Of a stretch of 64,000 nucleotides of DNA, positions 9,980 through 58,899 are shown one piece after another (the first letter of the stretch is position 1; the number at the start of each line of letters is the position of its first letter). Location of the stretch: positions 496,001-560,000 of the forward strand of contig NZ_JAEMNW010000004.1 of the NCBI RefSeq assembly GCF_016481275.1, read 5' to 3'. This DNA comes from Antrihabitans auranticaus. GTDB taxonomy: Bacteria; Actinomycetota; Actinomycetes; Mycobacteriales; Mycobacteriaceae. The notes under the pieces were generated by a model. It searched no databases. It was not told the DNA's origin and saw nothing but the letters and a program-made list of their open reading frames with translations. The position numbers were made by a program, and so were the translations under genes.

Positions 9980-9993
9980 GAACATATTTCACG

Positions 9994-10417: not shown

Positions 10418-10485
10418 ACCTTGATGTCGACGCCGCCGTGAGGAGACGGCCAATGCCGGACCGACGAATTGCGCGTGTCATCGGC

Positions 10486-12099
10486 TCAGCACCCCACATC
10501 GCGAGAGCGGAATCCTGCGAAGCCGAGGACGAGGACCGCAACTGTCAGCGTCAGAATTGCGAGGATCGGTGTCGTTGTGACACTTTCGAGAGGAGCCTGT
10601 GGGGTGTGCGTGTACGGTGACAGATCTCGCATCCAGTCCGGCAATTTGAACGAGTCGGCAAACAAAACGATGATCGTGCAGTAGCCGAACGTGGTCCATG
10701 CGATCGCAGCGGCGATTCGCGGTAGGTATCCGATGCCGAGAACCGCGATAGCGACGACGAGCCAGGTCGCCGGCAGGTACACCAATGCGACGCCGGTGAG
10801 GCGGATCGCCTGGCCCGGATCCGAGACGGTGAGCCCGTAGGCGAGTCCTTCGCCGAAGCCGCCCGCGGCCGCGACCAATGCGCTCCCGGCCAGCGCAACC
10901 GCGACATGGCTTGCGAGCCATTCCCCCCGACTCGTGGGCGTGGCGTAGATGGGTTCGGCCCTGCCGGAGGTTTCCTCCGCACGCGCGCGCAACGCACTGG
11001 AGACGCCATACGCCGCAGCGAGAAGGGCCGCCATCGTGACTGTGAGGGCGAGGTAGGCATTGACAGCGTCGGCAGCGCCGCCCGGCAAGTACGAGGCGAT
11101 CTCGGGATTGTCGGCGATGAAATCTTCGATGCTGCTTCCGAACGACCCGTACGCCGCGGCGAGGGCGAACACTCCGATCGTCCACATGATCAGCGAGCCT
11201 CGCTGGAGGCGCCAAGCCAGACCGAGCGGCGAACCGAGGAGCCACGACGCACTCGCTCGACCAGATCGGTAACCGAGCACGCCTGCACCGAAGTCTCGAC
11301 GATCCAGCACGGCGACAGCGACGATGACAAGCAGCGGACCGAAGATAGCTGGGAGCAGTAGCGGCCACCAACGGTCGCCCGCGAAGGGAAACGTCCGCTG
11401 ACCCCAGCCGATCGGTGACAGCCACGACAGCGTCCCATTCCCGACATCCCCGATTGCGCGCAGGGCGTACGCAATGCCGATCGCAGAAGTTGTTGCACCG
11501 TAGACACTTCGGGGGTTTTCGAAGATCTGAACTGCGATCGCGGTCAGAGCTGCGAAGACAATTCCGACCCCCGCTATCGACGCCGCGAGGAGAAGCGATC
11601 CGCCCCATGGGAGGCCGGTGAGTGTTGCGGCGCCGAATGCGGCGCCTGCGATGGCGATGTCGGCGAGCCACGCCAGGCCGATCGCCGCCAACAGCGGAGC
11701 GCGGCGCCCAACGCGTGCGGAGCGAACCAGCTCGGCGCGTCCGTTCTCCTCGTCTGTGCGCGTGCACCGACCGACGATGAACATGTTCATCAGGGCGACG
11801 ACGACCGCGAGGTAGGCAAAGATTTCGAAGACGACCTCGCCGCCGATCGACGCGAGCAACTCCGTCGGTCCGCTCATCGCGACGATCGCGGCGTTACCAC
11901 CCATCGTTTCTCGCAGTTGCGCGAGCTCGAGCGGCGAACCGTAGAGCGACTGGCTGCCCCAGGACTGATAGCCCACCAGCAGCGCGGCACCGGCCAGCCA
12001 AAATGGCAGGCCAAACCTTTCGCGGCGTAATGCAAACCGAAACAACGGGCCGATGCCGACTGTGTCGTCGGTCCGCCCAGCAAACACGGTCGTGCTCAC
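10486..12099 (-). CDS. ABC exporter permease, tetronasin-resistance type
   Basis: A 537-residue polytopic membrane protein with about twelve hydrophobic helices arranged as two similar halves. It resembles the large single-chain permeases of the TnrB/Rv1217c class (exporters of polyketide-type antibiotics). The GTG start at 12099 overlaps the stop of the ATPase gene (GTGA), so the two subunits are made together. The pair would form an efflux pump for hydrophobic drugs; the substrate is not predictable from sequence. Confidence 0.88.
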
Positions 12100-13004
12100 A
12101 CCGCCACCTCGGTCTGGGCCGCGGGAGCAGTCTCATAATGCCGAAGGAAGATGTCCTCGAGCGTCGGTGGTGTCGCCGTGATACTGCGAACCCCGAGTGC
12201 GGAGACTCGTTGCAGCACGTGATCGAGCTGAGCGGCGTCGACGTCGAATCGTGTGCGCGCGCCGCTCACGACGACATTGTGAACTCCGAGGGCGGCGTCC
12301 AAGCCGAGGAGTGGACGTACGGTCTCGACAGTGATCGCAGTGCGCTCGAGGTGCTGGAGTTCGGACAGTGTGCCGCTTTCCACTGTGTGGCCGAGCCTGA
12401 TAATGCTGACTCGGTCGCAGAGCGCTTCGACCTCGGCGAGGATATGGCTGGACAGCAGTACTGTTCGGCCACGCCGTTTTTCGTCCTCGATGCAGTGCTG
12501 GAATTCGGCTTCCATCAGGGGGTCGAGGCCGACGGTAGGTTCGTCGAGTAGGAGTAGATCGGCGTCGGAGGCGAGCGCAGCGATCAGTGCAACCTTTTGG
12601 CGGTTGCCCTTCGAGTAGTTGCGGGCCTTTTTTCGTGGGTCCAGGTCGAACTGGTCGATGAGTGCGGCTCGTCTACGAGTGTCGATACCGCCGCGCAGCC
12701 GTCCCATCAGATCGATAACTTCACCACCGGTGAGCCCTGGCCAGAGGTTGACCTCGCCGGGCACGTAGGCAAGCCGGCTGTGCAAAGCAACGGCATCACG
12801 CCATGGATCACCGCCAAGCATTCTTACTGTGCCGGAGTCCGGGCGGAGCAGTCCGAGCAACACTCGGATAGTGGTGGTTTTGCCTGATCCGTTCGGTCCG
12901 AGAAAGCCGTGCACCTCGCCCTCCTCGACGGTCAGGTCGAGGCCGTCGAGGGCCTTGAAGTGGCCGAAGGATTTGGTCAGGCCGGAGATCGAGATCGCAG
13001 CCAT
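12096..13004 (-). CDS. ABC transporter ATP-binding protein, Rv1218c-like
   Basis: A 302-residue ABC ATPase with Walker A (GPNGSGKTT), a signature in the variant form [11 protein letters not shown] characteristic of this subfamily, Walker B (DLLLLDEP) and a C-terminal extension after residue 220. GGGAGGACC lies upstream of the ATG. It drives the permease encoded next, with which it overlaps by four bases. The pair lies between devR-devS with its usp genes and a second DevS-like kinase, so it may be part of the same stress island rather than a drug-resistance insertion. Confidence 0.92.
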
Positions 13005-13115
13005 CGGTGCGGGTCCTCCCTGTCGTGTGACGCTGGTTGATGTTCCTGTTCAGGTTCATCGAGTGCAGCGAAGGAAGGGAGGGCCGAACGTCCCAGGGGT
13101 GTGGGGCTTATGTGA

Positions 13116-15318
<2,203 letters not shown>

Positions 15319-15441
15319 ATGTTTGTCGATAAGTATCAAGTCGGTTCGAGAACGCGACCCGTCCCCGAATCGCGTCTTGTCGGCGGGGAATTCGAAGCGG
15401 TTGTCGTGGGTAAAACCTCGAAGTTCTCAGGAGTTCGGTGA
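15319..15441 (+). CDS. Possible 40-residue small protein
   Basis: An ATG at 15319 with AGG-rich sequence about 10 bp before it opens a 40-codon frame whose TGA shares a base with the ATG of the PLDc_N gene (TGATG-like arrangement). The peptide is basic with no recognisable motif. The overlap suggests a coupled leader or a small gene, but the codon choice is not decisive and it may be untranslated. Confidence 0.25.
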   Translation: MFVDKYQVGSRTRPVPESRLVGGEFEAVVVGKTSKFSGVR

Positions 15442-15674
15442 TGCACAAACGTCGGAGCGAACTTTCTCCTGCCGCGCAGACTGGAATCTCGATCCTGGGC
15501 GCAGTCCAGCTTGCCCTTGCCGCCGCTGCCTGGACCGACCTTGCACGGCGACCGGACGATGAGGTATCGGGCCGTAAGTCATGGTGGGCCGCAGCAATTC
15601 TCGTCAATTTCGTCGGTCCCATCGCGTACTTCCGTCTGGGCCGACGGGGCAGCAGTGAGGCTACGAGTGGCTGA
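15441..15674 (+). CDS. PLDc_N-type small membrane protein
   Basis: A 77-residue protein with a hydrophobic helix after an N-terminal polar stretch (about 14-34) and a second ending in the characteristic WWAAAILVNFVGPIAYFRLGR. That last motif is typical of the phospholipase D nuclease N-terminal (PLDc_N) family, small two-helix membrane proteins of unknown function. AGGAG lies about 8 bp before the ATG. Its 3' end overlaps the start of the VIT-family gene by eight bases. Confidence 0.8.
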   Translation: MHKRRSELSPAAQTGISILGAVQLALAAAAWTDLARRPDDEVSGRKSWWAAAILVNFVGPIAYFRLGRRGSSEATSG

Positions 15675-16416
15675 GGCAGTCGAACCGCGGAGTGCCAAGC
15701 ACTGGGGAGCCTTCATCGAGCCGACGGAGCCGCACGCGTCGGGAACGTCGCGGCGGCTGAACTGGCTCAGAGCCGGCGTTCTTGGCGCCAATGACGGCAT
15801 CGTGTCGACCGCAGGACTGGTCATCGGCGTTGCGGCAGCAGATGCTGGTCGCGGCCCGATACTGACGGCGGGAGTTGCGGGACTTGTTGCCGGCGCGGTG
15901 TCGATGGCAGTCGGCGAGTACGTGTCGGTCAGCACTCAGCGCGACACCGAGAAAGCGTTGCTGGAAAAGGAACGGGGTGAGTTGGCGGACGCGCCGGAAC
16001 AGGAACTCGCGGAATTGGTCTCGCTGTACGAGGCGAAAGGTTTGTGTCGGGACACGGCGACCGTGGTAGCAGCCGAACTCACTGCACGCGACGCGTTTGC
16101 GGCGCACGTCGATGCCGAGTTGCGAATAGACCCCGATGCGCTCACGAACCCCTGGCACGCCGCAATTTCGTCGGCCGTGGCCTTTACGATGGGGGCGTTG
16201 CTGCCCCTGCTCGCTATCTTGCTTCCGGCTGGAGACGTCCGGATTCCAGTCACGTTCGGCGCCGTTGTCGGGGCGTTGGCGTTGACCGGCAGCGTCAGTG
16301 CGAGCCTGGGCGGCGCGAAGCGCTGGCGGGCCACGCTTCGGATTGTCACGGGAGGGGTGATCGCGATGGCAGTGACCTACGCGATCGGCCAGTTGGTCGG
16401 ACTGGGAACGGTCTGA
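15667..16416 (+). CDS. VIT1/CCC1-family transporter
   Basis: A 249-residue membrane protein of the VIT/CCC1 family, which moves Fe2+ or Mn2+. Features: the first helix segment LRAGVLGANDGIVSTAGLV, the AVSMAVGEYVSV segment, a soluble Glu-rich metal-binding stretch (about 100-150), then three C-terminal helices. The GTG at 15667 is preferred since GTGAGG lies just before it; a GTG at 15655 is possible. Overlap with the preceding gene suggests one transcript. Iron or manganese handling would fit a redox-stress island. Confidence 0.87.
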   Translation: MAEAVEPRSAKHWGAFIEPTEPHASGTSRRLNWLRAGVLGANDGIVSTAGLVIGVAAADAGRGPILTAGVAGLVAGAVSMAVGEYVSVSTQRDTEKALLEKERGELADAPEQELAELVSLYEAKGLCRDTATVVAAELTARDAFAAHVDAELRIDPDALTNPWHAAISSAVAFTMGALLPLLAILLPAGDVRIPVTFGAVVGALALTGSVSASLGGAKRWRATLRIVTGGVIAMAVTYAIGQLVGLGTV

Positions 16417-43843: not shown

Positions 43844-44725
43844 TCACTGCGCCTCTTTATCAGAGTCTCCGGAGAGGAACTGGTCAACCAGGGCATTGAA
43901 CCGAGTGGTGTGTTCGATTTGTACCCAGTGCCCGCAACGGGCGAACACGTGCAGCTGGCTGTTCGGGATCAGGTCGAGCAGCCGTCGACTTGTCGACAGA
44001 GGGATCACCTGATCGTCACGGCCGTGCACGATCAGGGTCTCGTGGGTGAGGGCGGCAATCTCCTTTTCCGGAACGGCCATTGCGGTGACCCTGTCCTGCC
44101 TGGGGGCTGGGAACATCGCTGCGTAGGCTTCGTGGACGCCGGGGCGCGTGGCGGCGCGGTGCCGTAACTCGGCGAGCTCGTCGGTCGCGAACCTCGGGTC
44201 GTAGGCGAATATATTGAGCAGCCGTCGCATGTTCTGCACCGACGGCTGATGGCCCCACACCGCGTCCAAACCAGGCGTGAGCGGAAACAGGACTCCCACA
44301 CTGCCCATGAGTACGAGCCGGTTGACCCGTTCCGGGTGACGCGTGGCCAGCCGCAGCGCCAATGCACCGCCGAAGCTGTTGCCCACGGGGGATACTCGCT
44401 GGAGTCCCAGTGCGTCGAGGAAGCCGATCAGGTGCGTCAGCCAAGTGTCGGCGTTGTACTCCGCGTGGTCGGGACGCTCGGTGTAGCCGAACCCGAGGAT
44501 GTCGGGGGCGATCACTCGGTGGTGTTTGGCCAGTTCAGGGATCGTCAAGCGCCAGTTCGCCCATGCCGACACTCCGGGGCCGGAACCGTGAATGAGTAGC
44601 ACCGGATCCCCGGACCCGACGTCGTGATAGTTGGTGGCGAGACCGTTCACCTCTATGCTCCGGCCGATCTCGGGTGAAGCTTCGTGTATCTGATCGGCTT
44701 CGGATATGGCGATTTGCTGTGTCAT
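43844..44725 (-). CDS. Meta-cleavage product hydrolase (alpha/beta hydrolase)
   Basis: A 293-residue alpha/beta hydrolase of the BphD/MhpC/HsaD type. The oxyanion loop is HGSGPGVSAW (residues 46-55), the nucleophile is Ser117 in GNSFGG, and the catalytic His is in ARCGHWVQIEH. It cleaves C-C bonds of ring-fission products from catechol dioxygenases. AAAGGAAAT precedes the ATG at 44725. It diverges from the ferredoxin-dioxygenase genes, with about 215 bp of shared regulatory DNA between. Confidence 0.9.
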   Translation of the reverse strand: MTQQIAISEADQIHEASPEIGRSIEVNGLATNYHDVGSGDPVLLIHGSGPGVSAWANWRLTIPELAKHHRVIAPDILGFGYTERPDHAEYNADTWLTHLIGFLDALGLQRVSPVGNSFGGALALRLATRHPERVNRLVLMGSVGVLFPLTPGLDAVWGHQPSVQNMRRLLNIFAYDPRFATDELAELRHRAATRPGVHEAYAAMFPAPRQDRVTAMAVPEKEIAALTHETLIVHGRDDQVIPLSTSRRLLDLIPNSQLHVFARCGHWVQIEHTTRFNALVDQFLSGDSDKEAQ

Positions 44726-44941
44726 CGAGATTTCCTTTCTCGCCGCACGAATAGCGGCTGATGTTTCGAATCTCGCATGCGGCGGTGCGGTGGGCAAGAC
44801 CGCCGGCGCATCCGAAGTGAGTTGGCGCACAAATGCTTGCGCGAACCGGATAAGACCTTCGCGCAGCGGATCGGAATCCGTTCGCGGCCCTGTCACAGTG
44901 GGGTCATCGACAACGCAAGCTCCACCGGCGAGGAGGTTTTC

Positions 44942-45343
44942 ATGAACGACATTGATTGCAGCACAGCGTGTTCAGTCGCTGACCTGTCCATGCAGGCCAC
45001 CTCGAGTGCCGGGGCAGTGCGAATCCTGCCGGCGAATGTGCGGTTTTCCGTCGAGCCTGGCGAGTCGATCGTCGACGCGGTTCGCAGGATTGGATATCGC
45101 ACGCGCTATTGCTGCCGACGGGGAGGCTGCGGTGCGTGCAAAGCGGACCTGGTCGCCGGGACAGTGCACTATTCGGTCCCGATTGCCGAGTCGGTCCTCA
45201 GCGTCGCCGAGCGCCGGGAGGGCAAGTGCCTACCGTGCCGAGCGCATCCTGTCGGCGAGATCGTCATCCGGCTCGCTGAGCGAGACCGGCTACGCCGCAC
45301 ATTCGGCTTCATCAATCCTGCCAGCGGCGACGCTGGCCGCTGA
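44942..45343 (+). CDS. XylT-like [2Fe-2S] ferredoxin
   Basis: A 133-residue ferredoxin with a plant-type cluster site C-x4-C-x2-C-x29-C (Cys58, Cys63, Cys66, Cys96). The segment CRRGGCGACKADLVAGTVHY resembles XylT, which re-reduces and reactivates catechol 2,3-dioxygenase after oxidation of its iron. GAGGAGG precedes the ATG. Immediate position before the dioxygenase gene supports that role. An N-terminal extension of about 25 residues is unusual. Electron donation to the LLM oxygenase is less likely since that uses reduced flavin. Confidence 0.85.
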   Translation: MNDIDCSTACSVADLSMQATSSAGAVRILPANVRFSVEPGESIVDAVRRIGYRTRYCCRRGGCGACKADLVAGTVHYSVPIAESVLSVAERREGKCLPCRAHPVGEIVIRLAERDRLRRTFGFINPASGDAGR

Positions 45344-45355
45344 AAGGAACAACAC

Positions 45356-46270
45356 ATGGGTGTCATAAGACTCGGGTACGTCCATTTACGGGTCACCGAC
45401 CTGGATTCCTCGACCGAGCACTATCGCAACACGCTCGGCATGGACGCTGTCGCCGAGGAAGACGGGCGGCTCTACCTGAAGTCCTGGGATGAACACGACC
45501 ATCATTCCGTGGTCCTGGAAGAAGGCGGTGTCGGGCTGGTCAAACTCGGCTATAAAGTCGCTACGCCGGAGGACTTGGACGAGTTCGAGCATCGCGCAAC
45601 GGTATTCGGTGCTCGGGTGCAACGGATGAGCAAGGGCGACAACGTCGGAGTCGGCGACGGACTGCGGATAACTCTGCCGTCGGAGCACACCCTCGAGCTT
45701 TACAACGACGTCGAGTATCTCGGAAATGCCACGGGCAGCTGGAATCCCGACCCGTGGCCGCGAGAAGGCCTGCGTGGCATCGGGGTTCCGCGACTGGACC
45801 ACACTCTTATCACCACCGCCGACCCGATCCTGCTGGAACGGTTCTTCTCCGAGGTGCTCGGCTTCCGGGCAGCCGAACGTCTCGTCGGCGGTCCCGATAA
45901 CGACGACCTCGTCGGCTCATGGATGTTCTGCGGTGAACAGCCCCACGACATCGCCTTCGTCAAGGGGGAGCAGGGCAAACTGCACCACTTCGCGTACCAC
46001 GTCGACGACTGGACCAGCCTGCTCCGCGCCGGCGACATCTTCTCCATGCGCGACGTCCCGATCGATTTCGGACCCGCCCGGCACGGCATCACCCGCGGGG
46101 AAACGCTGTACTTCTTCGACCCGGCCGGCAACCGCAACGAGATCTTCGCCGGCGGCTACCGCACCGGTCCCGACTTCCGCACCATCACCTGGACGATGGA
46201 CAAGGCCGCGCAGGGCATCAACTACACCCATCGCGAACTCGATCCCGACTTCCTCAACGTCGTCACCTGA
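45356..46270 (+). CDS. Catechol 2,3-dioxygenase (extradiol, type I)
   Basis: A 304-residue two-domain vicinal-oxygen-chelate enzyme. The Fe(II) ligands are His149 (PRLDHTLI), His211 (KLHHFAYHVD) and Glu262 (GNRNEIFAGG). Catalytic His243 (ARHGIT) and Tyr252 (TLYFFDP) match XylE. It opens a catechol ring next to the hydroxyls. It follows the ferredoxin gene by 12 bp. The actual catechol is unknown; two different hydrolases in the cluster suggest a substituted ring. Confidence 0.93.
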   Translation: MGVIRLGYVHLRVTDLDSSTEHYRNTLGMDAVAEEDGRLYLKSWDEHDHHSVVLEEGGVGLVKLGYKVATPEDLDEFEHRATVFGARVQRMSKGDNVGVGDGLRITLPSEHTLELYNDVEYLGNATGSWNPDPWPREGLRGIGVPRLDHTLITTADPILLERFFSEVLGFRAAERLVGGPDNDDLVGSWMFCGEQPHDIAFVKGEQGKLHHFAYHVDDWTSLLRAGDIFSMRDVPIDFGPARHGITRGETLYFFDPAGNRNEIFAGGYRTGPDFRTITWTMDKAAQGINYTHRELDPDFLNVVT

Positions 46271-46310
46271 TGGATTCACCATGGACAAACAGAAATCTGA
46301 AGGAGCCGAC

Positions 46311-46925
46311 ATGAATACCGCGATCGCGCCAAGTCCTGTCGACGTGAAGCTCTTGCGCCGACGACTCGGCGAATTCTCCACCGGCGTCACCGTCGTGACC
46401 TACCGGGACAGCGACGGACAACCGCGCGGTGCCACGATGAACTCGTTCACGTCGGTGTCGATGGATCCACCGCTCGTGCTGGTGTCCGTCGCCCGGCAGG
46501 CGAAAGCTTGTGAAGGGCTGCGCGACAACGCCTTCACCGTCAACATTTTGGCCGCGAATCAACTCGACCTCGCTCTGCATTTCGCGGGCAGACCGAACAC
46601 CTCGCTGGTAGTGGGGTGGCACGAACCGACCGTCGGGCCACCGCGCCTCACCGGTACGGCGGCGTGGTTGCAGTGCCGTTCGTGGCGTGACTACGACGGT
46701 GGCGACCACATCCTCGTCCTCGGTGAAGTCGAGCACCACGACGCCCGACCGTTGGAACCGTTGACCTTTCACCGTGGCGAGTTCCGACGTCCCGGTCTCA
46801 AGCTGCTGCAGCTGCCCCGCACTGTCGCGTTCGACGGTCGCCCGGCCTGCGAATGGGCCAGCCACGTCAACATGTTCTACGCGCTGGCCGATGCCGGCAT
46901 CGACGACCAACCGCTCGATATCTGA
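46311..46925 (+). CDS. Flavin reductase
   Basis: A 204-residue flavin reductase of the HpaC/HsaB-like family (FSTGVTVVTYRDSDGQPRGATMNSFTSVSMDPPLVLVSV). It uses NAD(P)H to make FADH2 or FMNH2 for a partner monooxygenase. The ATG at 46311 has AAGGAG before it; an ATG at 46281 is possible. It is encoded 14 bp before the LLM monooxygenase, its natural partner. Confidence 0.92.
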   Translation: MNTAIAPSPVDVKLLRRRLGEFSTGVTVVTYRDSDGQPRGATMNSFTSVSMDPPLVLVSVARQAKACEGLRDNAFTVNILAANQLDLALHFAGRPNTSLVVGWHEPTVGPPRLTGTAAWLQCRSWRDYDGGDHILVLGEVEHHDARPLEPLTFHRGEFRRPGLKLLQLPRTVAFDGRPACEWASHVNMFYALADAGIDDQPLDI

Positions 46926-46939
46926 TCAGGAGATGCATC

Positions 46940-48211
46940 ATGAAAGTCAACTATTTCCAACAGGTTCCGTACCGTCAGCTTCCCGACGACTTCGAACAGC
47001 GATACGAATCCGTCGTCACGACACCGTATTTCGATGTTACGACCTCGGACAACGTCATTGGCGCGTTCCGCCAGTCCATCGACGAACTCATGCACGCCGC
47101 CCGCGCCGGCTTCGACGGGCTGCTGGTCACCGAGCACGGGCAAAGTTCCTACGACATGGCACCGAACCCGAACATCGTCGAATCCGCGGTGGCCTACGCC
47201 ACCGAAATCGAGAACATCGCAACCGCGATCTACCCCGTCGGGCGCTCGTTGGGCAAAAGTCGTGAACCTATCCGCGTCGCCGAGGAACTGGCGATGATCG
47301 ACGCCATTTCCAGTGGCCGTTTGGTCAGCGGTTTCCCCGTCGGACTGGCCTACGACGCGAACATCAACAACGGTGTGCCACCGGCGCAGACACGTCAGCG
47401 TTTCGACGAGAATCTGGAACTGGTGCTCAAAGCGTGGACCGAACGCGAAGCGTTCCCCTGGAACGGGCGCTTCGCGCAGCATGCGGCAGTAAACATCTGG
47501 CCCAGGCCCATCCAGCAGGCGCCGCATCCTCCGGTGTGGATCACCGGCATCGGCAATCCGAAGACGATGCAGATGACCATCGATCGCGAGTTCGGGTTCA
47601 ACTACTTCGGCTGGTTCGGTCTCAAGGTCACCGGACGGCGAATCTTCGACCGGTTCTGGGAACTGCTCGACAAGTCCGGCAAGGACGCCAACCCCTACCG
47701 CCTCGGGTTCATGCAGACCATCTGCGTCGCCGACACCGACGCGAAAGCCGAAGCACTGTATGCCAAGCACGCCGAGTACTTCTTCCAGAAAGGCATCGGC
47801 TCGATCCCCATGCAACGCCTCGCGTTGCCCGGCGGGATCGATATCCGCGGCGTCGAGGCGATCATGCGCGACCCGGGCGATTTCGGCATCTATAACAAGA
47901 TGCGCACCGCGTCTTTCGCTGATCTGGTCGACGCCGGCTCGGTGATCTGCGGTTCACCCGACACGGTTGCCGAGCAACTAATCGCCTACGCCCGCGAATA
48001 TCGCATCGGCAACCTGCACGCGATGCTGCAGTTCGGTTCCATGCCGCACGATCTGGCAAAAGACAACATCGATCTGTTCGCGAGCGCCGTGATGCCGCGC
48101 CTGAAGCAGGTGTGGGACGACGAGGGCCACGAACATCATTGGTGGCCTGAGAGTCTCGGCGGCCGACCACTCGCAACCAGCCCGAACAATTTGATTGGAG
48201 CACTCGCATGA
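46940..48211 (+). CDS. LLM-class flavin-dependent monooxygenase
   Basis: A 423-residue luciferase-like (TIM barrel) monooxygenase with LLVTEHGQSSYDMAPNP and AEELAMIDAISSGRLVSGFPVG, the flavin- and substrate-pocket strands of the family. It needs reduced flavin from the preceding gene. In this setting it may hydroxylate an aromatic ring to the catechol, or cleave a C-C or C-X bond to unveil it. LLM enzymes are less usual than group A or HpaB-type enzymes as the feeder of a catechol dioxygenase. The stop overlaps the next start (ATGA). Confidence 0.9.
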   Translation: MKVNYFQQVPYRQLPDDFEQRYESVVTTPYFDVTTSDNVIGAFRQSIDELMHAARAGFDGLLVTEHGQSSYDMAPNPNIVESAVAYATEIENIATAIYPVGRSLGKSREPIRVAEELAMIDAISSGRLVSGFPVGLAYDANINNGVPPAQTRQRFDENLELVLKAWTEREAFPWNGRFAQHAAVNIWPRPIQQAPHPPVWITGIGNPKTMQMTIDREFGFNYFGWFGLKVTGRRIFDRFWELLDKSGKDANPYRLGFMQTICVADTDAKAEALYAKHAEYFFQKGIGSIPMQRLALPGGIDIRGVEAIMRDPGDFGIYNKMRTASFADLVDAGSVICGSPDTVAEQLIAYAREYRIGNLHAMLQFGSMPHDLAKDNIDLFASAVMPRLKQVWDDEGHEHHWWPESLGGRPLATSPNNLIGALA

Positions 48212-49026
48212 GTACGATCGCCCTACCCGAGGTCACCGAACGGGTCGTCGAGGTCTGGAACGGCAAGATTCGCCTGCGGTTCAAAGTCACCGGTAGCGGG
48301 CCGGGCCTGGTGTATCTGCACCCGGCCGCCGGTCTTGCCTGGGACGGATTTCTCGCCCGGTTGGCCCAGGACTACACCGTCTACGCCCCCGAATTCCCCG
48401 GCACTTCACCCGTCGACCCCTACGCCATCCACCACGTCGACGACCTGTGGCAACTGGTGCTTCTCTATGAGGAGGCCATCCGCCGCCTGGACATCGGTAC
48501 GCCGGTCCTGGTCGGGCAATCATTCGGCGGGATGCTCGCTGCCGAACTGGCCGCTGCCTACCCCGATCAGTTCGACAAGCTCGTCCTGCTCGATCCGATC
48601 GGCCTGTGGCGCGAGGACAAGCCGGTCGCGAACTGGATCACCGCCGCACCGACCGAGCTTCCGGCCATGCTTTTCGCTGACCCGGAAGGCCAAGCAGCCC
48701 AGGCGATGTTCACACCCCCCACCGACCCGGAAGAAGCGATCGCCGCCGGCGCCGGGATGGTGTGGGCGCTGGGCTGCACCGGTAAATTCGTCTGGCCCAT
48801 CCCGGACAAGGGCCTGAAGAATCGCCTGCACCGCATCACCGCACCGACCCTGATCATCTGGGGCGAACAGGACAAGCTGATCGACGTCTCGTACGCGGAC
48901 GAGTTCGCGTGCCGAATCGCCGGCAGCACCGTCGCGACCGTGCCCGGTGCGGGACACATTCCGCAGGTCGAGCAAACCGACCTCACCCACAAACACGTCG
49001 ACGGCTTCCTACGCGAAGGCCGGTGA
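48208..49026 (+). CDS. Alpha/beta hydrolase, second in cluster
   Basis: A 272-residue alpha/beta hydrolase with nucleophile Ser105 (VGQSFGGML), a catalytic His in GAGHIPQVE and an Asp in GEQDKLID. The oxyanion loop is LHPAAG rather than HGSGPG, so it is not a close copy of the hydrolase at 43844. It may cleave an ester or carboxylic product, or a second ring-fission product. It is coupled to the LLM gene and ends at a strong hairpin. Confidence 0.88.
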   Translation: MSTIALPEVTERVVEVWNGKIRLRFKVTGSGPGLVYLHPAAGLAWDGFLARLAQDYTVYAPEFPGTSPVDPYAIHHVDDLWQLVLLYEEAIRRLDIGTPVLVGQSFGGMLAAELAAAYPDQFDKLVLLDPIGLWREDKPVANWITAAPTELPAMLFADPEGQAAQAMFTPPTDPEEAIAAGAGMVWALGCTGKFVWPIPDKGLKNRLHRITAPTLIIWGEQDKLIDVSYADEFACRIAGSTVATVPGAGHIPQVEQTDLTHKHVDGFLREGR

Positions 49027-51658: not shown

Positions 51659-53005
51659 TCAGAGCGCGGCACGAAGGCGATCGGCGAGTTCCTTTGCGCT
51701 GGTGACGACGATGCCGGGGCGGTCGATGAGGGCTCGGTCGATCACGCTGGCCAGTTGGTCGGGGATAGCGGGGTTTCGATGCTGGATCGGGACCGCGTCA
51801 GTGCCGAGCACTATGCCGATGGGGTCGGCGCCGAGGGGGAATTCGCGGGGGGTGCGGCCGGTCAGCATCCAATACAACGAGGCGGCCATAGCCCAGACAT
51901 CGACGTCGGGTTTGGCGTATTTGAAATCGATCATCTGCGGGCGGGGCATGAAGGCCATCGTTCCGGCGACTGCGCCGGTCATGGTGTGTCCGGACAGGCC
52001 TGCGAAATCGAAGGCCTTCGCGAGACCGAAGTCACCGATTTTCGTTATCCGGTCGCGGCCTTCACCACTGAGCAGGAGGTTGGCGGGTTTTATGTCGCGG
52101 TGGATCACGCCGCGCCGCACGCCAGCATCGGCGAGCGGGGCGGTGTGGGCGTACTGCAGTCCCTCGAGTGCTTGCAGCACGATATGGACAGCCTCGTAGA
52201 CGCTGAGTGGTCCGGTGCGGGCGACGTAATTATCCACGCTGCCACCGTCGCAGTATTCGCTGGTGAAGAAGAACGCGCCGCCCTCGGAACCGGAATCGTG
52301 GAAGGTGACGATGTTGCGGTGGCGCAAGCCTGCCAGGATCGCGATTTCTCGGCGGAAGTCTTTGTGCGCGCGCGAACTGCCGCTGGCAGCGAGGAGCACC
52401 TTCAACGCGCCGAGGTTCCCGCTGCCCTGCCTGGCGAGGAACACCGCTCCCTGCCCGCCGCGGCCGAGTTCCCGGATGACCTCGTAGCCAGCGTCCTTGG
52501 CGACTTGCAGCGCAGCCGTCGCGGGATCGTAGTCGTCGTCGAGATCGAACGACCAGTGCCACTGCCCGCCTGAATCGATGAGGTCATCAGCGATTCTGCC
52601 GTCCGAGGAGTCGTACGTGAGGTTGGCGTGTTCTGGTGGGGGCGCGGCGATGGCGACTTCGAGCACGGACGACCCGAGCTTGATCCGATCCCCGGCCGAC
52701 AGGTCGGCTTCCCGGTACGCGGCGCGGGCACCTTCCTCGGGTGTCTGATCCGGGCGGCGGCGACCTATCTCGTATCCGTTGACGTGGGTGCCGTTCAGAC
52801 TCCCGAAATCGCGTACCCGGATAGACGGTGGATTGATGTCGAACAGGCAGTGGTGACGAGAGACCGTCGGCCGATCGGTGGCGTCCACGATCCGGGGAGA
52901 GCAGTCGTCGGCACGCCCGGCGATGGCGGTCGTGCGTTCGTCGTAGACGAAAGTGGTTCCGCGCAGTGGTCCCTCGACCACCGACAACGTGACAGTCGGA
53001 TTCAT
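51659..53005 (-). CDS. FHA-domain Ser/Thr protein kinase
   Basis: A 448-residue soluble protein. Residues 20-115 are an FHA domain (GR at 30-31, SRHH at 49-52, NGTHVNG at 71-77) that binds phospho-threonine. The kinase follows from 174: Gly loop GRGGQG, Lys202, catalytic HRDIKPANLL (Asp304), DFGLAK (Asp325). No transmembrane helix is present, unlike most PknB-type kinases. The order FHA then kinase is uncommon and lets the kinase be recruited by a phosphorylated partner, perhaps the PknD-like kinase encoded 43 bp upstream. GGGGGCGAG precedes the ATG. Confidence 0.9.
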   Translation of the reverse strand: MNPTVTLSVVEGPLRGTTFVYDERTTAIAGRADDCSPRIVDATDRPTVSRHHCLFDINPPSIRVRDFGSLNGTHVNGYEIGRRRPDQTPEEGARAAYREADLSAGDRIKLGSSVLEVAIAAPPPEHANLTYDSSDGRIADDLIDSGGQWHWSFDLDDDYDPATAALQVAKDAGYEVIRELGRGGQGAVFLARQGSGNLGALKVLLAASGSSRAHKDFRREIAILAGLRHRNIVTFHDSGSEGGAFFFTSEYCDGGSVDNYVARTGPLSVYEAVHIVLQALEGLQYAHTAPLADAGVRRGVIHRDIKPANLLLSGEGRDRITKIGDFGLAKAFDFAGLSGHTMTGAVAGTMAFMPRPQMIDFKYAKPDVDVWAMAASLYWMLTGRTPREFPLGADPIGIVLGTDAVPIQHRNPAIPDQLASVIDRALIDRPGIVVTSAKELADRLRAAL

Positions 53006-53048: not shown

Positions 53049-54869
53049 TCACCGGTTCGTTGTGATCATGTATACGCCGTCGCTGCGACTGACGTAGAGG
53101 TCGCCGTCACTTGACACTGCGATTGCGAGGTCCGAGTCCGAGACATCGGTGGTCACAAGCTCCGCCGTCTGGGCACCGGGCGCGAGTCGGAGCACGCGGT
53201 CGCCGAGGTCGGTGTCGTTGTTCGGGTAATCGGCGGTGTCGAGGACCCATACGGCGCCGTCGCGGTCGGTGGTGATGGCGACTGGGTTCTGTAGTTCGCC
53301 GAACGGGAGCACTTTCTGTGTGGTGTTGTCGGAGGTGAGTTCGAGGACGCGGTCTTGTTCAGGGTCGGACATGAAGATCGTGTCGTCCTTGCCGGCTGCG
53401 AGTGCGGGTGCGGCGAAGCCGTTTTGCGTGTCGATCCCGGTCAGGATGCGTTCGTAGTCGGCGTCGCCGCTTTTACGGACCAGGTCTCCAGCGAATTCGT
53501 CGACGACGTAGACCGCCGGGCCGGTGTCGGTGATCGCGATCGAGCCGGGCTCGTTGACCTCGAGGAGCAGGCGGGCGGTGCTGGATCCGGCAGGAAGCGC
53601 CAGCACGTCGCGGCGCGGCGGGTCGGTAACGACGATGGTGCCGGCGCTGTCGACCGCTATGTCGTTGGGGCTGACCACATTTGGGAAGGGCAGGGTGGTT
53701 GTACTACCGTCGTCCCGGTTCCAGCTCAGTACCGCACCGGACGTGTCGGCTATCAAGAGATCGCCGTTGGGTGCCACTGTGATCCCGCTCGGAGAGTCGA
53801 GGCCGGAAATCGGCAGTTTGGTTGTCGCACTATTTGTTTCGTCGTCACCTCGCAGGCTCCACGCGGCTACAGCGCCGCTGACGACGACCAGCCCGGCCGC
53901 AATCGCCAGCGCGACCGGCGTGCGTAGCCAGGGTGTCGGCTGGGCTGGGTCGCGGGGCCGCCGCGACCGTGGATCGGGTATCGATGCTTCGGTCCAGTCG
54001 ATCGTCGGCGCGGGACTCGGTGTGGTGGTGTTGGCGAGCGCGTGTCCGACCGCTCGCGCGAGGGTGCCACAGGTGACGTACCGGTCGGCCGATGATTTCG
54101 CCAGAGCGCGAGCGATGATCGCATCGAAACTGCCCGGGAGCCCCACGACCTGTTGGCACGGGGTGGGTATCGCGCCGTGCAAATGTCCGTATCGGACCTG
54201 CGGCGGTGATCCGGGATAGGGCTTCGCGCCGGTGAGCAGTTCGTAGATCGTGCAACCGAGGGAGTAGACGTCGGTGCGGAAGTCGAGCCGGTGTCCTTGG
54301 AGTTGTTCGGGGGAGGCGTAGGACAGGCTGGCGGTGACGTTCGCCGTGGCGAAGCTGGAGTCGGCGGTTTTCGCGATGCCGAAGTCGGTCAGGAACACAC
54401 GCGGTAGGCGTCCTGGCGGGGCCGTTTCGACGAGAATGTTGGCGGGTTTCACGTCGCGGTGCAGTACGCCGTGGGCGTGTGCGTGGTCGAGAGCAGCGGC
54501 AACCTGCTCGATGATGTGGCTTACCAGGCCGGGTGGCGGCGGTCCGTTCTCGTCGAGCAGCGAGTATGCGTCGGTCGCGTCGACGTACTGGTAGGCGATC
54601 CACAAACGTTCTTCGAACCGTCCGCGGTCGAGTACCGGCACAATGTTGGGGTGTTCGAGCCTGGCCGCGTGATCGGCTTCGGACTCGAAGTGCGACCGAA
54701 TGTGGTTGTCGGTGGCGAGATTACGGTGCAGTACCTTCAACGCGACCCGCTTGGGCATCCGCGGATGCGTTGCCAGGTACACCGTGCCCATCCCGCCCCG
54801 GCCGAGCACCCGTTCGAGGGTGAACCCGGCAAACGGGCGACCGGCAGACCCGCGGCCCCGTCCCGGCAT
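53049..54869 (-). CDS. PknD-like Ser/Thr kinase with extracellular beta-propeller
   Basis: A 606-residue receptor kinase. The intracellular kinase (about 15-275) has Gly loop GRGGMG, Lys45, HRDVKPAN (Asp139) and DFGIAK (Asp162), so it should be active. One transmembrane helix lies at about 318-338. The external part (350-606) has repeated blades of the NHL/SGL type (SPSGITVAPNGDLLIADT and similar), as in M. tuberculosis PknD. GGGAGG lies just before the ATG at 54869; an ATG 18 bases earlier overlaps the upstream stop. It is encoded directly after a kinase-dead relative. Confidence 0.9.
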   Translation of the reverse strand: MPGRGRGSAGRPFAGFTLERVLGRGGMGTVYLATHPRMPKRVALKVLHRNLATDNHIRSHFESEADHAARLEHPNIVPVLDRGRFEERLWIAYQYVDATDAYSLLDENGPPPPGLVSHIIEQVAAALDHAHAHGVLHRDVKPANILVETAPPGRLPRVFLTDFGIAKTADSSFATANVTASLSYASPEQLQGHRLDFRTDVYSLGCTIYELLTGAKPYPGSPPQVRYGHLHGAIPTPCQQVVGLPGSFDAIIARALAKSSADRYVTCGTLARAVGHALANTTTPSPAPTIDWTEASIPDPRSRRPRDPAQPTPWLRTPVALAIAAGLVVVSGAVAAWSLRGDDETNSATTKLPISGLDSPSGITVAPNGDLLIADTSGAVLSWNRDDGSTTTLPFPNVVSPNDIAVDSAGTIVVTDPPRRDVLALPAGSSTARLLLEVNEPGSIAITDTGPAVYVVDEFAGDLVRKSGDADYERILTGIDTQNGFAAPALAAGKDDTIFMSDPEQDRVLELTSDNTTQKVLPFGELQNPVAITTDRDGAVWVLDTADYPNNDTDLGDRVLRLAPGAQTAELVTTDVSDSDLAIAVSSDGDLYVSRSDGVYMITTNR

Positions 54870-54883
54870 CGGCACCTCCCTGT

Positions 54884-56623
54884 TCATGATCGAGGGAGTT
54901 CGAGCACTCGGTCCTCATCGGTGGTGACGACGATGCCACCTTCTGCCGTGACCGCAACATCGATGAGCGTGCCGACGTCACCGAACGCTAGTACCGCCGC
55001 GTCGGTCCCGTCGGAAGCGACGCGGACGACGCTGTTTCCGTCCACGATGAAGATCCTGCCGTCGGAGTCGACGGCGACGCCGCCGGGTTGGCGGAGTCCG
55101 TCGACGGCGATGGGTTCGTAGCGGCCGCTGTCGGGATCCACCCGACCGATCCGGCCGGCTGCCCGATCGGTCACCACCACCGTGCCATCGGGTGCGACAG
55201 CCAGCCAGTTCGCCTGCCCATCGGGTATCGAGATTTCGGTGATGGTGCCGCGGGAGGTGACCGGCGCCAACCGGTACAAGCGGCCGGCGTCGGTGACGAA
55301 CACGGAGTTGTCGACCGGAGACGATGCGACGTCGAAAACATGGGTGAACTGGTCGGTGAGCACAGTTTCGGTACCGGTCCGCTGATCCAGCCGAATGAGA
55401 TCGCCGGTTCCGAACGATGCCACCGTCACCTCGCCGTCGGCACCGACGTCCACACCACCAGGGCTCGCCACGTTGTCGAACGGCAGCACGTCCTGACTTG
55501 CTGCATCGTCCCTCAACGACAGAATCCTGTTGTTCTCTCCATCGGCTACATACACGGTGCCCTCGGTGTCCACGGCGATGCCTGCAGGATCGTCGAGTCC
55601 GGTGAATGCCAGCGGCACAGGAGATTTGTACTCGCCCGGGGAGTCTGCGCCTCGTACGTCGATCCAGACGGCGGCGGCCGCTGTGGCGCCGAGGACAAGT
55701 ACTGCGATCGCGGCACCCCAGACCTTGTGCCGGGTGCGGCGGGTCAGGCCACTGCGTTCGTGGAGTGCTCGCTGGAGTGCCTGCGCCAGTTCGGTGCAGG
55801 TTCGGTAGCGGTCCTGCGGACGCTTGGCCAGGGCTGTTGCGATCACCGCATCGACAGCGGGCGGGAGGTCCTTTTGAATTCGGCTGGGCCGGGGGATGGG
55901 AGCGTCCAGGTGTGCTCGCAAAACCACAGGTATCGCCCCGGAATACGGGGCTTCGCCCGTGAGTAGCTGATACGCCGTGCAGCCGAGTGCGTACACGTCA
56001 GACCATGGTCCGGGCGGGGAGCCGACGATCTGCTCGGGTGCGCACGGCAGTGCTGCTGTCGGCGAGTGGTCGCGGCGAGGATCGTGGGTGGCCGCGGTAA
56101 AGCCGAAGTCGGTCAACAACACTCGCTCGCGGCGGCCCGGACGGGGCGTCTCCAGCAGAATGTTCGACGCTTTGACGTGCCCGTGCAGCACACCCTGGGT
56201 ATGCGCATAGTCGAGGGCGGAAGCGATGTCTGAAACGATGTGGGCGGCGCGGGCTGGAGCGATTCGCGCGGTGTCGATCGCTTGGGCAGCATCGACCGCG
56301 TCGATGTACTGGGTGGCGATCCAGGACCGATCGGCGTCGCGGCCGATGTCGAGGATCGACACGATGTGGGGATGGTCCAGGTGTGCGGCGCGGCCGGCCT
56401 CGGCGTCGAATGCGGCTATTCGGTCGGCGGAAGTCGGAATCGATTGCAGAACTTTGAGAACCAGTCGTTTCGGCAGTCGCGGATGACGCGCCACATACAC
56501 CGCGCTGTGCGGGCTGAACTTCAAGCATCTCTCGATGGTGAAGCCGGCGAAACGGTGCCCCGGCGCGAACTCGCCCCCCACCACGCGTGCTGCACCTCCC
56601 TCGCCGTCGGTTCCCAGTATCAC
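54884..56623 (-). CDS. PknD-like pseudokinase with extracellular beta-propeller
   Basis: A 579-residue relative of the next gene with the same order: kinase fold (25-290), transmembrane helix (302-321), NHL-type propeller (340-579). The kinase looks dead: the Gly loop is KFSPHS instead of GRGGMG (residues 35-40), and the catalytic HRD is His147-Gly148-His149, so the proton-accepting Asp is missing. Lys57, Asn154 and DFG (Asp172) remain, so ATP might still bind. The stop overlaps the first possible start of the active kinase, so both are made together. A regulatory or co-receptor partner is the natural reading. Confidence 0.88.
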   Translation of the reverse strand: MILGTDGEGGAARVVGGEFAPGHRFAGFTIERCLKFSPHSAVYVARHPRLPKRLVLKVLQSIPTSADRIAAFDAEAGRAAHLDHPHIVSILDIGRDADRSWIATQYIDAVDAAQAIDTARIAPARAAHIVSDIASALDYAHTQGVLHGHVKASNILLETPRPGRRERVLLTDFGFTAATHDPRRDHSPTAALPCAPEQIVGSPPGPWSDVYALGCTAYQLLTGEAPYSGAIPVVLRAHLDAPIPRPSRIQKDLPPAVDAVIATALAKRPQDRYRTCTELAQALQRALHERSGLTRRTRHKVWGAAIAVLVLGATAAAAVWIDVRGADSPGEYKSPVPLAFTGLDDPAGIAVDTEGTVYVADGENNRILSLRDDAASQDVLPFDNVASPGGVDVGADGEVTVASFGTGDLIRLDQRTGTETVLTDQFTHVFDVASSPVDNSVFVTDAGRLYRLAPVTSRGTITEISIPDGQANWLAVAPDGTVVVTDRAAGRIGRVDPDSGRYEPIAVDGLRQPGGVAVDSDGRIFIVDGNSVVRVASDGTDAAVLAFGDVGTLIDVAVTAEGGIVVTTDEDRVLELPRS

Positions 56624-56670
56624 GCGTGTCGGGTTGGTAGTGGGTGACTGTCGGCGTATCGGTTGACAAG

Positions 56671-57507
56671 ATGGCGACTATGGCCGCAGACGACTTCTCC
56701 GCGCCGGACCTGACTGTTCTGGAATCAGGCTACGACGATTCGACGTCAGGAGAACACACTTGGACGCTGTATGCAGCGTCGTGGCCGGTATTCGATCTGA
56801 CCGAGTGGGCACTTTTGCAGGCTCGAGCGATCGGCGCACCGGGGGACTCCGTTGTGGAGGACCGGGCACACGGACGTGCCGAGGTTCGGCGTGCCCCGGC
56901 AAGGGGTTCCGGAGTGATCAGTTTTGCCGTCGGCACCCAACCGCCGCGGCCAACCAGCCGAAGCATCCCCAGTGGCAACCAGTCTTTCATGCTGCACGAT
57001 GTGTTTCGACCTGGTGTGTTCGGTGCGCAGACCGCGCCCACGTGGTCGGCGGTGTATCGCAGTCCGATCTTCGTCGTGGCGTTCGCATTGGTGGCAGTCG
57101 GACTCGTCGGTATCGGCTCGCAACGGACCGCGGACGGTCCCCAATGGTGGCTGCTCGGCTTGATCGGGTGCGTAGCCGTGACTGTGGCCGGGTTGGGCTC
57201 CTCGATTGCGACGGTCTATCACCAGGAGAACCGTAAAGACCGCTGGTACGTGTTCGGTGTGCACGCCGGAACGCTGGCCGTAGTGTCGATCGCGTTGGCG
57301 GTGGCGCTGGTTGTGGCCGCGCAACGGGCGCACGGGTTCCTCGAAACCGTGAAAGGGTTCTGCTTTCTGTTCGGGTTCACCATGTTGCCGGTCGGGTTGC
57401 TGCTGATGTTCGTGCTGGGGGTGGTCGGCGGGGCAAGCACACCGCGCGGGCGGGGCAACCTGATCCAGGGCGGCCACCCGCTACAGTCCAGAACGACGCG
57501 ACCGTGA
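56671..57507 (+). CDS. Membrane protein of unknown function
   Basis: A 278-residue protein: a soluble N-terminal region of about 125 residues, then four helices (IFVVAFALVAVGLVGIG, LLGLIGCVAVTVAGLG, TLAVVSIALAVALVVAA, FTMLPVGLLLMFVLGVVGG). No family is recognised. Start is uncertain (GTG at 56644 is the alternative). It is divergent from the pseudokinase gene with under 50 bp between, so they share a promoter region and probably a function. Confidence 0.65.
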   Translation: MATMAADDFSAPDLTVLESGYDDSTSGEHTWTLYAASWPVFDLTEWALLQARAIGAPGDSVVEDRAHGRAEVRRAPARGSGVISFAVGTQPPRPTSRSIPSGNQSFMLHDVFRPGVFGAQTAPTWSAVYRSPIFVVAFALVAVGLVGIGSQRTADGPQWWLLGLIGCVAVTVAGLGSSIATVYHQENRKDRWYVFGVHAGTLAVVSIALAVALVVAAQRAHGFLETVKGFCFLFGFTMLPVGLLLMFVLGVVGGASTPRGRGNLIQGGHPLQSRTTRP

Positions 57508-57560: not shown

Positions 57561-58034
57561 ATGGCGATCGACAGCTTCGACATTGCAATGGTCGAGCGCT
57601 ATCTGAACAGCCGCGGTTGGCGCTTCGACCGCACGGGGGACCACAAGGTGGTCATGAAAGCCCGCGCGGGCGAGCGAGACGTGTGGGTGAAGTTCAAGTC
57701 GTCTCGGTCGGCGCCCGGTGTCTGCACTATTCGAGTGCAATCCGATCACGAGTTTGCGCGCGAGGATCGGAGTCGGCTACTCGAACGTGCGAACCGTTGG
57801 AACTCCGAAAATCGTTGGCCCACAGCATATGTCGTTGATATACCGGCTACCGGAGGGATCCAGGTCGTCGGTAAGAGCTCGTACAACTTCGGAAGCGGCG
57901 TGCATTTCGACCTGTTCACTGCACTCGCGAACAGCACGATCCTCGGCGCCGTGCAGATGCTCGACGACATCGGTACGTCGATGAAGCTGCCGCGGACAGG
58001 AAGTTTCGAAGCATGGTTCCGGCTCTCCGAGTGA
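57561..58034 (+). CDS. YbjN-domain protein
   Basis: A 157-residue YbjN-type protein (VERYLNSRGWRFDRTGDHKVVM opening). The family resembles secretion chaperones and is linked to stress and motility control in enterobacteria; mechanism unknown. GGAGG lies upstream. It is 53 bp after the membrane protein gene and 70 bp before the PP2C gene, in one direction. Confidence 0.8.
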   Translation: MAIDSFDIAMVERYLNSRGWRFDRTGDHKVVMKARAGERDVWVKFKSSRSAPGVCTIRVQSDHEFAREDRSRLLERANRWNSENRWPTAYVVDIPATGGIQVVGKSSYNFGSGVHFDLFTALANSTILGAVQMLDDIGTSMKLPRTGSFEAWFRLSE

Positions 58035-58104
58035 CCCCGTGCGTCAGTCTTACTCGTGTGCCGCGGGTAGTGGCCGGCGACCGGCACATGACACATGGTC
58101 GAGG

Positions 58105-58899
58105 ATGATGGGCCACATCACGCACGCGGGAGCGAGCCACATCGGTAGCCGATCCCGAAACGACGACCGCTGGGCGGCACACCCCGACATTGGATTGTTC
58201 GTACTCGCGGACGGCATCGCCACAGCACCGTCCGCCGCGCGAGCGGCCGACCTCGTTGTGCATCAACTGCCCCGATACCTCGACGAATCAGGCCGCGCCG
58301 ACTCCCGCCTTATACCCGGCGGTGGCGAACGAGCCGGCGAGGATCTCTGCAGAGCCGTTGCCTCGATGTCCGACAGCCTCTACCGTCACACCCGTCGCCA
58401 CTCGGAGCTCGCCGGAACCGGCACCACTGTCGTCGCTGCACTGGTGGATGCGAGCGCCGTAACGGTTTCCCACCTCGGTGACAGTCGGGCATACCTCCTG
58501 CGCGACGGAGTCCTGACTCAACTGACCAGCGATCACACGCTCGCTGCTGCACTCGTCGAGGCAGGGGAACTTACCGGAGACGAGGTCGAGCACCACCCAG
58601 GACGTCACCGACTCACCCGGTTTGCCGGCATGCGTCCCCCCGCGTTGCCCGGCTGCACCACGATCGACTGGACTCCAGGCGACCGGTTGATGTTGAGCAG
58701 CGACGGGCTCCACAACGCGGTACTACCCACCGCAATCCGAGACATCCTGAGCGACAACGCCACAAGTTGCGAGAAGACTTGTCAGCGCCTTATCGACGCC
58801 GCGATCGCCGACGACTCCGCCGACAACACGACCGTCATCGTCATGCACCTCGACGGGGGCGGCCCCGACTCGGAAAGCAGGCCCTTGTCTCGAACGTGA
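58105..58899 (+). CDS. PP2C-family Ser/Thr phosphatase
   Basis: A 264-residue PP2C phosphatase. Metal-binding motifs: SRSRNDDRW near residue 18, LADGIA, GDSRAYLLRDG, SSDGLHNAV and DDSADNTTVIV. The frame could extend to a GTG at 58039. It should remove phosphate from targets of the three kinase-type proteins encoded at 51659-56623, giving the locus both sides of a phosphorylation switch. It is cytosolic: no transmembrane helix, unlike PstP. Confidence 0.9.
   Translation: MMGHITHAGASHIGSRSRNDDRWAAHPDIGLFVLADGIATAPSAARAADLVVHQLPRYLDESGRADSRLIPGGGERAGEDLCRAVASMSDSLYRHTRRHSELAGTGTTVVAALVDASAVTVSHLGDSRAYLLRDGVLTQLTSDHTLAAALVEAGELTGDEVEHHPGRHRLTRFAGMRPPALPGCTTIDWTPGDRLMLSSDGLHNAVLPTAIRDILSDNATSCEKTCQRLIDAAIADDSADNTTVIVMHLDGGGPDSESRPLSRT

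Follow-up and report, generated by a model that had tools for sequence, protein, structure and literature searches.

A probable receptor pseudokinase beside its live PknD-like paralogue in Antrihabitans auranticaus

By its sequence, the PK gene of Antrihabitans auranticaus encodes a real and probably functional receptor pseudokinase, lying beside a live twin, AK. Both genes are located in the stretch of 64,000 nucleotides analysed here (the window; contig NZ_JAEMNW010000004.1, positions 496,001 to 560,000), and the coordinates of the features are collected in Table 1. The PK-AK pair is a single-species case so far.

Table 1. Features of the PK-AK region, in window coordinates
Feature	Position	Strand	Basis or remark
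PK, probable receptor pseudokinase (kinase - TM - six-bladed NHL propeller)	54884..56623	-	579 aa counted from first GTG
PK likely true start	GTG 56584, not 56623	-	GGGAGG at 56600-56595
PK kinase-homology domain, about residues 25-288	55760..56551	-	PF00069 and AlphaFold2 kinase fold
PK degenerate glycine loop LKFSPHSAV, residues 34-42, replacing LGxGGMGxV	56498..56524	-	
PK HGHVKASN, residues 147-154, replacing HRDVKPAN	56162..56185	-	
PK DFG retained, residues 172-174	56102..56110	-	
PK transmembrane helix, residues about 303-321	55661..55717	-	Hydropathy
PK predicted extracytoplasmic six-bladed NHL propeller	54887..55627	-	AlphaFold2 and structural match to PknD sensor
AK, live PknD-like receptor kinase paralogue	53049..54887	-	Likely true start ATG 54869
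AK catalytic loop HRDVKPAN	54438..54461	-	
GGGAGGT, Shine-Dalgarno-like site, 4 nt before ATG 54869	54874..54880	-	Read from sequence
FHAK, FHA-domain soluble kinase, HRD intact	51659..53005	-	43 nt after AK
Divergent ORF with hydrophobic stretches	56644..57507	+	No Pfam/NCBIfam match
Divergent YbjN-family protein	57561..58034	+	
Divergent PP2C phosphatase, candidate for resetting kinases	58039..58899	+	

Architecture and motifs of PK

The PK protein matched the Pfam kinase family PF00069 with 96.1 bits, with the best stretch at residues 40-278, and NHL was also matched. The coordinates, frame and motifs given in an earlier sequence-only reading (KFSPHS and HGH, with Lys57, Asn154 and DFG kept) were all found as written, and so was the common kinase-helix-propeller architecture of PK and AK, each of which gave Pfam kinase and NHL matches and has one hydrophobic helix. 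The same reading had called the sensor secreted, but the protein is membrane-anchored and it is the propeller that is predicted to be extracytoplasmic.

In the catalytic loop, the Asp, Arg and Pro of HRDVKPAN are gone and the Lys and Asn are retained, with His at the position of the HRD Asp. The activation segment lacks the conserved Thr and Tyr columns, the former of which is also absent from AK, and the juxtamembrane linker (residues 289-302) is short with few Thr. PK thus has a kinase-homology domain (PF00069) lacking one residue of the catalytic triad (HRD Asp to His), which is what defines a pseudokinase. It shows the kinase, single transmembrane helix and six-bladed NHL propeller of the PknD type, without the intact catalytic motifs of that type (KFSPHS, HGH). 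By its sequence, PK is derived from PknD-type receptor kinases and is no working member of the kind, and these motifs argue strongly that phosphotransfer was lost.

PK does retain Lys57, the alpha-C Glu, Asn154 and the DFG Asp. Such a set would suit a protein that binds nucleotide and catalyses a reaction other than phosphotransfer, in the fashion of SelO, which has no HRD Asp, and SidJ, which has no canonical catalytic motif (as described in passages of PMC12599244). This seems improbable for PK, in which the glycines of GxGxxG are replaced by Lys, Ser and Ser and a Pro stands at one further conserved glycine column; moreover, no family of SelO or SidJ type appeared among Pfam and NCBIfam matches at E <= 0.001.

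An artefact of assembly or base calling is very improbable. The sequence comes from a single assembly, but this is 99.94% complete and 0.15% contaminated, and over 100 codons of one open frame separate KFSPHS from HGH. Frameshifting was considered as a source of HGH and KFSPHS and rejected: the ORF at 55998-56669 reads no GxGxxG and the other frame hits stop at the loop. No pair of frameshifts hides a normal glycine loop, because both other frames fail there.

The full-length PK model (AlphaFold2, with AK as sole companion sequence) gave a propeller of 24 strands in six blades, with mean pLDDT values of 69-92 in 10-residue blocks from residue 331 on. Among natural structures the PknD sensor 1rwi came closest to the propeller (TM 0.85 by target length), although designed Pizza proteins outranked it. 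The kinase part of this model was mostly below pLDDT 60, and the kinase fold was read instead from a separate kinase-domain model built with three window sequences (mean pLDDT 75, below 50 over residues 163-187, the activation loop, and 213-235). The best PDB match of the latter was PknI of M. tuberculosis, followed by other bacterial and eukaryotic kinases. PknI has been described as 'pseudokinase-like', with a short activation loop.

AK and the neighbouring genes

The sequence-only reading had stated that the next gene has every catalytic residue, and this holds for AK, where LGRGGMG, Lys, HRDVKPAN and DFG are all intact and are followed by a helix at about residues 325-343 and the NHL part. 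A long linker with many Thr and Pro residues connects its kinase domain to the membrane. PK, AK and FHAK form a co-directional run of three kinase genes on the minus strand.

Overlapping reading frames and a fixed PK:AK ratio had also been put forward. An ATGA overlap at 54887-54884 exists only when AK is started at its first ATG (54887), while a start at ATG 54869 leaves a gap of 14 nt after the PK stop and no overlap. Since the GGGAGGT site favours ATG 54869, outside the PK frame, neither the overlap nor the fixed ratio is supported. The same Shine-Dalgarno reasoning makes GTG 56584 the probable start of PK. Co-expression of PK and AK is likely from their tight spacing. A promoter scan found 0 promoters versus 0.7 expected, which is uninformative. 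The idea of a foreign island was dropped as unsupported, with a GC content of 0.63-0.66 versus 0.59-0.66 in the surroundings.

The window between 51659 and 58899 appears as a compact 7-kb phospho-signalling island with the FHA-kinase, the PP2C phosphatase, the YbjN protein and the two receptor kinases. Orthologues of FHAK were found in 3 of 151 genomes counting its own, the other two being G002 (61%) and G160 (46%). At the G002 locus no kinase-propeller gene was present within the 19 kb covered and the island is unmatched. At the G160 locus the contig extends only about 2.6 kb upstream of the orthologue, and a PP2C gene and two more kinases lie downstream, so that G160 shares FHAK and the adjoining PP2C with the window. 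FHAK was tried as marker of a conserved cassette and rejected, as neither G002 nor G160 (the latter up to its contig end) yields an orthologous PK-AK pair. Elsewhere in the window, at 43844-49026, ORFs for a hydrolase and for proteins like a ring-cleavage dioxygenase, a flavin reductase and a luciferase-type monooxygenase, as read from their translations, stand in a row that resembles an aromatic meta-cleavage cluster.

Rarity, origin and retention of PK

The genome of A. auranticaus gave 42 PF00069 matches, corresponding to 38 kinase ORFs (four with two matches each), and 37 of them keep the beta3 Lys, HRD Asp and DFG Asp, PK being the exception. In the collected loci, which were mostly picked for likeness to PK or to kinases generally and are no random sample, the catalytic loop could be read in 142 distinct kinase ORFs, of which 141 keep the HRD Asp and the exception is again PK. 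The loop triplets of the 142 were HRD (137), HGD (2), HLD (1), YND (1) and HGH (1). Two unreadable rows stand outside this count: one frame ends before the loop (L065), and the other (L167, 11377-12417, in G227:C66) is kinase-like and 347 aa long, with Lys and DFG in place and the entire HRDVKP stretch missing. The ends of the latter are odd and no propeller was evident; a live kinase-propeller gene stands some 3 kb away, and the ORF itself appears to be broken. In the collected loci, then, PK alone has lost the HRD Asp by point substitution, but it is not the sole kinase-like ORF without that residue. The motif HGH[VIM]K[AP]xN, searched as an exact DNA pattern that detects this loop type alone and is blind to other routes of Asp loss, occurs in one of 401 family genomes, at the PK gene itself.

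Several other kinases of the collected loci are recorded here as observations in their own right. Four neighbouring kinases of the same type in L140 (G000:C18:148500-166500; ORFs 2136-4439, 9393-11414, 11348-13945 and 13885-16035) have a Pfam match split in two and DFN at DFG, and one has HRDIQPAN versus HRDxKPAN. The kinase at L141 2370-3575 (G000:C23) has HRDLTPAN and a Gly at the alpha-C Glu position. The PknD-like kinase-propeller gene at L165 5126-7138 (G159:C93) reads HRDVTPGN, with the catalytic Asp kept and the loop Lys changed to Thr; 2.7 kb beyond it there is another PknD-like gene, whose loop is normal. Live-live pairs, in contrast with PK-AK, are found on the Mycobacterium gordonae plasmid p1 (L175, 2846-4762 and 5651-7219, neighbouring kinases) and on Rhodococcus jostii pRHL3 (L173, 3720-5762 and 6727-8643, with a MarR gene between); HRD is intact in both members of each pair, and the first member is PknD-like with a propeller.

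Searches with the PK protein gave no orthologue in 61 genomes and, in the four genomes of the genus including its own, nothing orthologous in the three other species. The sequence-only reading had named a lack of conservation of the pair as evidence against it, and the pair was indeed found in no other species: no PK orthologue stood among the matches listed from 401 family genomes (E <= 1e-55, three candidates scored per genome), the best of which was 49% identical over the kinase part. The genome contigs gave 14 loci, with a best identity of 41% (records near the window possibly excluded). Plasmids gave 602 records, all below 60% and with no orthologous pair; in six of them a single place covers at least 80% of PK, the best being about 40% identical, on Rhodococcus plasmids. 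The PK propeller alone was matched in 11 of 201 genomes at E <= 1e-12, its own included, and the matches in other genomes are either 32% identical over 240 aa or 36-53% identical over short stretches, again with no orthologous pair. The AK propeller gave 5 of 151 genomes, its own included, and no close relative; AK searched against plasmids gave no close relative either, and viral contigs gave no relative.

PknB orthologues are only 63-65% identical within the genus. The nearest sampled species are therefore distant, and the absence of the pair elsewhere may be a sampling gap, so that closer relatives could carry it. Since no orthologue or second instance of the pair was found, no function was deduced from conservation.

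In a full-length tree of 30 kinase-propeller proteins (the 30 distinct ones of 51 ORFs), PK and AK were sisters with a support of 91/94. The support was 88/74 with the propeller alone and 87/37 with the kinase alone (SH-aLRT 37). It was unstarred, and the tree tool flagged the joining of two long branches in the propeller tree, from which a false grouping of PK and AK can arise. Shared rare states were dismissed as proof of sisterhood, being uninformative: in the set of 123 kinases PK has only 2 in common with AK and as many as 5 with unrelated rows. The 29 other proteins of the tree all keep the HRD Asp that PK is without. Since kinase-propeller relatives elsewhere carry HRD (G001, G002, G028, G227, G253 and Rhodococcus plasmids), the simplest reading, which we hold with moderate confidence, is an old tandem duplication in the lineage of PK and AK themselves. 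As for its age, 1.2-1.5 changes per site lie on each of the two branches.

PK is 36% identical to AK overall and 47% in the kinase part, and its frame is open across 579 codons. In a simulation, 300 copies of the AK gene were left to drift neutrally towards 65% GC (substitutions only, no indels). At 80% protein identity 14 of the 300 still had an open frame, at 65% this fell to 2, and at 54% and at 37% to none. A set of 49 columns, each conserved at >=85% among 121 further kinases, served to compare PK with AK. Of the 22 columns concerned with nucleotide binding, catalysis or activation, PK retains 10 and AK 21, and each retains 23 of the remaining 27 (Fisher p = 0.005 for PK, exploratory because the column classes were drawn after seeing the list). 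The conserved C-lobe columns from APE onwards are intact in PK without exception (11 of 11). In trees of the 30 proteins the propeller end branches are similar (PK 1.56, AK 1.66) and the kinase end branches differ about 1.6-fold (1.29 for PK versus 0.79 for AK), the pattern that a receptor still sensing and no longer catalysing would show.

These data bear on a different account, namely that PK is a slowly decaying duplicate, or a propeller decoy that soaks up ligand, with a kinase domain without a role. The single-species occurrence would agree with it, as would the longer kinase branch and a GC3 of 0.744 versus 0.774-0.786 in three neighbours, which leans slightly against function; the broken-looking ORF near the live kinase-propeller gene of G227 indicates that such decay occurs in the family. 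This account is nevertheless judged unlikely, given a frame that remains open where no simulated neutral copy survives, losses clustered at catalytic sites with the C-lobe columns complete, and a propeller branch not longer than that of AK. Because the frame is open, the losses fall at catalytic positions and all 11 C-lobe columns are kept, PK does not look like decaying junk, and the case for selection on its scaffold is fairly strong.

Candidate roles and known systems

In the preferred explanation, an old tandem duplication of a PknD-like gene would have given rise to PK, a receptor kinase that has lost catalysis and is retained for the parts that do not catalyse. The propeller would be its sensor outside the membrane, and the kinase-homology domain would pair via its N-lobe with AK and set the activity of AK, either as an activating partner once the PK ligand is bound or as a brake that withdraws AK from productive homodimers. 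The AK signal would probably be handed to FHAK through phospho-threonines of AK, and the PP2C phosphatase would reset the kinases. Taken as a whole, with a dead PK retained, its pairing with AK and the relay through FHAK, we consider this explanation about evenly poised between right and wrong.

The heterodimer gate of PK on AK is plausible by analogy, since PknD-type kinases are activated by N-lobe dimers; according to passages of PMC3601408, N-lobe dimerisation activates PknD allosterically and stabilises the active form of PknB. A heterodimeric pair calls for an adjacent live paralogue of the same architecture, and AK is one. L50 and D92 of PK align with the N-lobe dimer Leu and Asp of PknB, presumably L33 and D76. 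With 99 and 100 of 123 rows sharing them, respectively, both are widespread in the family; they therefore only permit the dimer idea, showing no more than that this surface persists. In AK the position of L50 is occupied by Met. The analogous residues of the MviN dimer are L750 and D793 (passages of PMC12599244).

The long, Thr- and Pro-rich linker of AK and the short one of PK suggest that FHAK docks on AK and not on PK, and a link between FHAK and PP2C is somewhat supported by the FHAK orthologue of G160, which adjoins PP2C and further kinases. The linkers also weigh on the proposal that PK is an MviN-like substrate and scaffold, phosphorylated by AK or FHAK and recruiting the FHA-kinase with no allostery on AK. 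It would account for the FHA domain encoded by the third gene and for the retained kinase fold of PK, and it has an actinobacterial precedent in MviN, whose pseudokinase domain helps to recruit an inhibitory protein (passages of PMC12599244). However, the linker of PK is short and Thr-poor, its activation segment lacks the conserved Thr and Tyr columns, and AK appears to be the better FHA dock, which leaves this proposal unlikely, if somewhat less so than decay.

As for known systems, PknD of Mycobacterium has the same kinase, transmembrane helix and six-bladed NHL propeller as PK, with a similar propeller fold (1rwi), and the N-lobe dimer logic may be common to both (by analogy with passages of PMC3601408). 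MviN (Rv3910, ActPs3) is, like PK, an actinobacterial membrane pseudokinase with a kinase fold; its structure 3uqc ranks 31st among the PDB matches of the PK kinase model (TM 0.68/0.76, 18% identity). MviN retains neither the Lys motif nor HRD and DFG (passages of PMC12599244) and belongs to a MurJ-type protein, whereas PK has lost the glycine loop and the HRD Asp and has a propeller. The same source describes ActPs1 with all three catalytic residues substituted, ActPs2 with the beta3 Lys changed to Arg, the HRD Asp to Asn, DFG mostly deleted and large insertions, and ActPs3 with VALT, HRD and DFG lost (passages of PMC12599244). PK differs from ActPs1 in keeping Lys57 and DFG, and the defining motifs of ActPs2 and ActPs3 are absent from it.

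A precedent for the logic of a dead sensor kinase paired with a live paralogue, though from another protein family, is known in C. glutamicum, where a ChrS pseudokinase variant formed heterodimers with the live paralogue HrrS by two-hybrid (passages of PMC9491836). Unlike PK, ChrS is a histidine kinase of a different fold, and the variant is a laboratory-evolved frameshift (same passages). A search of literature titles and the starts of abstracts gave no propeller pseudokinase paired with a live kinase, a weak negative with most subscription journals outside the search, and the main text of PMC12599244 has no word beginning with NHL, propeller or PknD. That review of 2025 presents most of the bacterial Ser/Thr pseudokinases as divergent families whose function is unknown (PMC12599244).

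The PK-AK pair allows catalytic loss to be compared with an adjoining live twin that has the same type of sensor, at a stage when Lys, Glu, Asn and DFG are still present. In eukaryotes, HER3 with HER2 is the case of a dead receptor kinase acting as allosteric partner of a live one, with contact and effect known; PK and AK would share the dead-live receptor idea. A bolder and tentative possibility, less likely than the explanation above, is a ligand-gated heteromeric receptor of bacterial Hanks type, in which the dead and live propeller receptors would form an obligate or competing dimer and compare two outside cues before switching on the FHA-kinase. If true, this would be a bacterial counterpart of HER2/HER3 logic, arisen from one tandem duplication with the sensors separately diverged. 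With its dead and live twins side by side, the pair offers a compact, testable model of the passage from receptor kinase to non-catalytic regulator, and it bears on whether bacterial receptor kinases signal as heterodimers.
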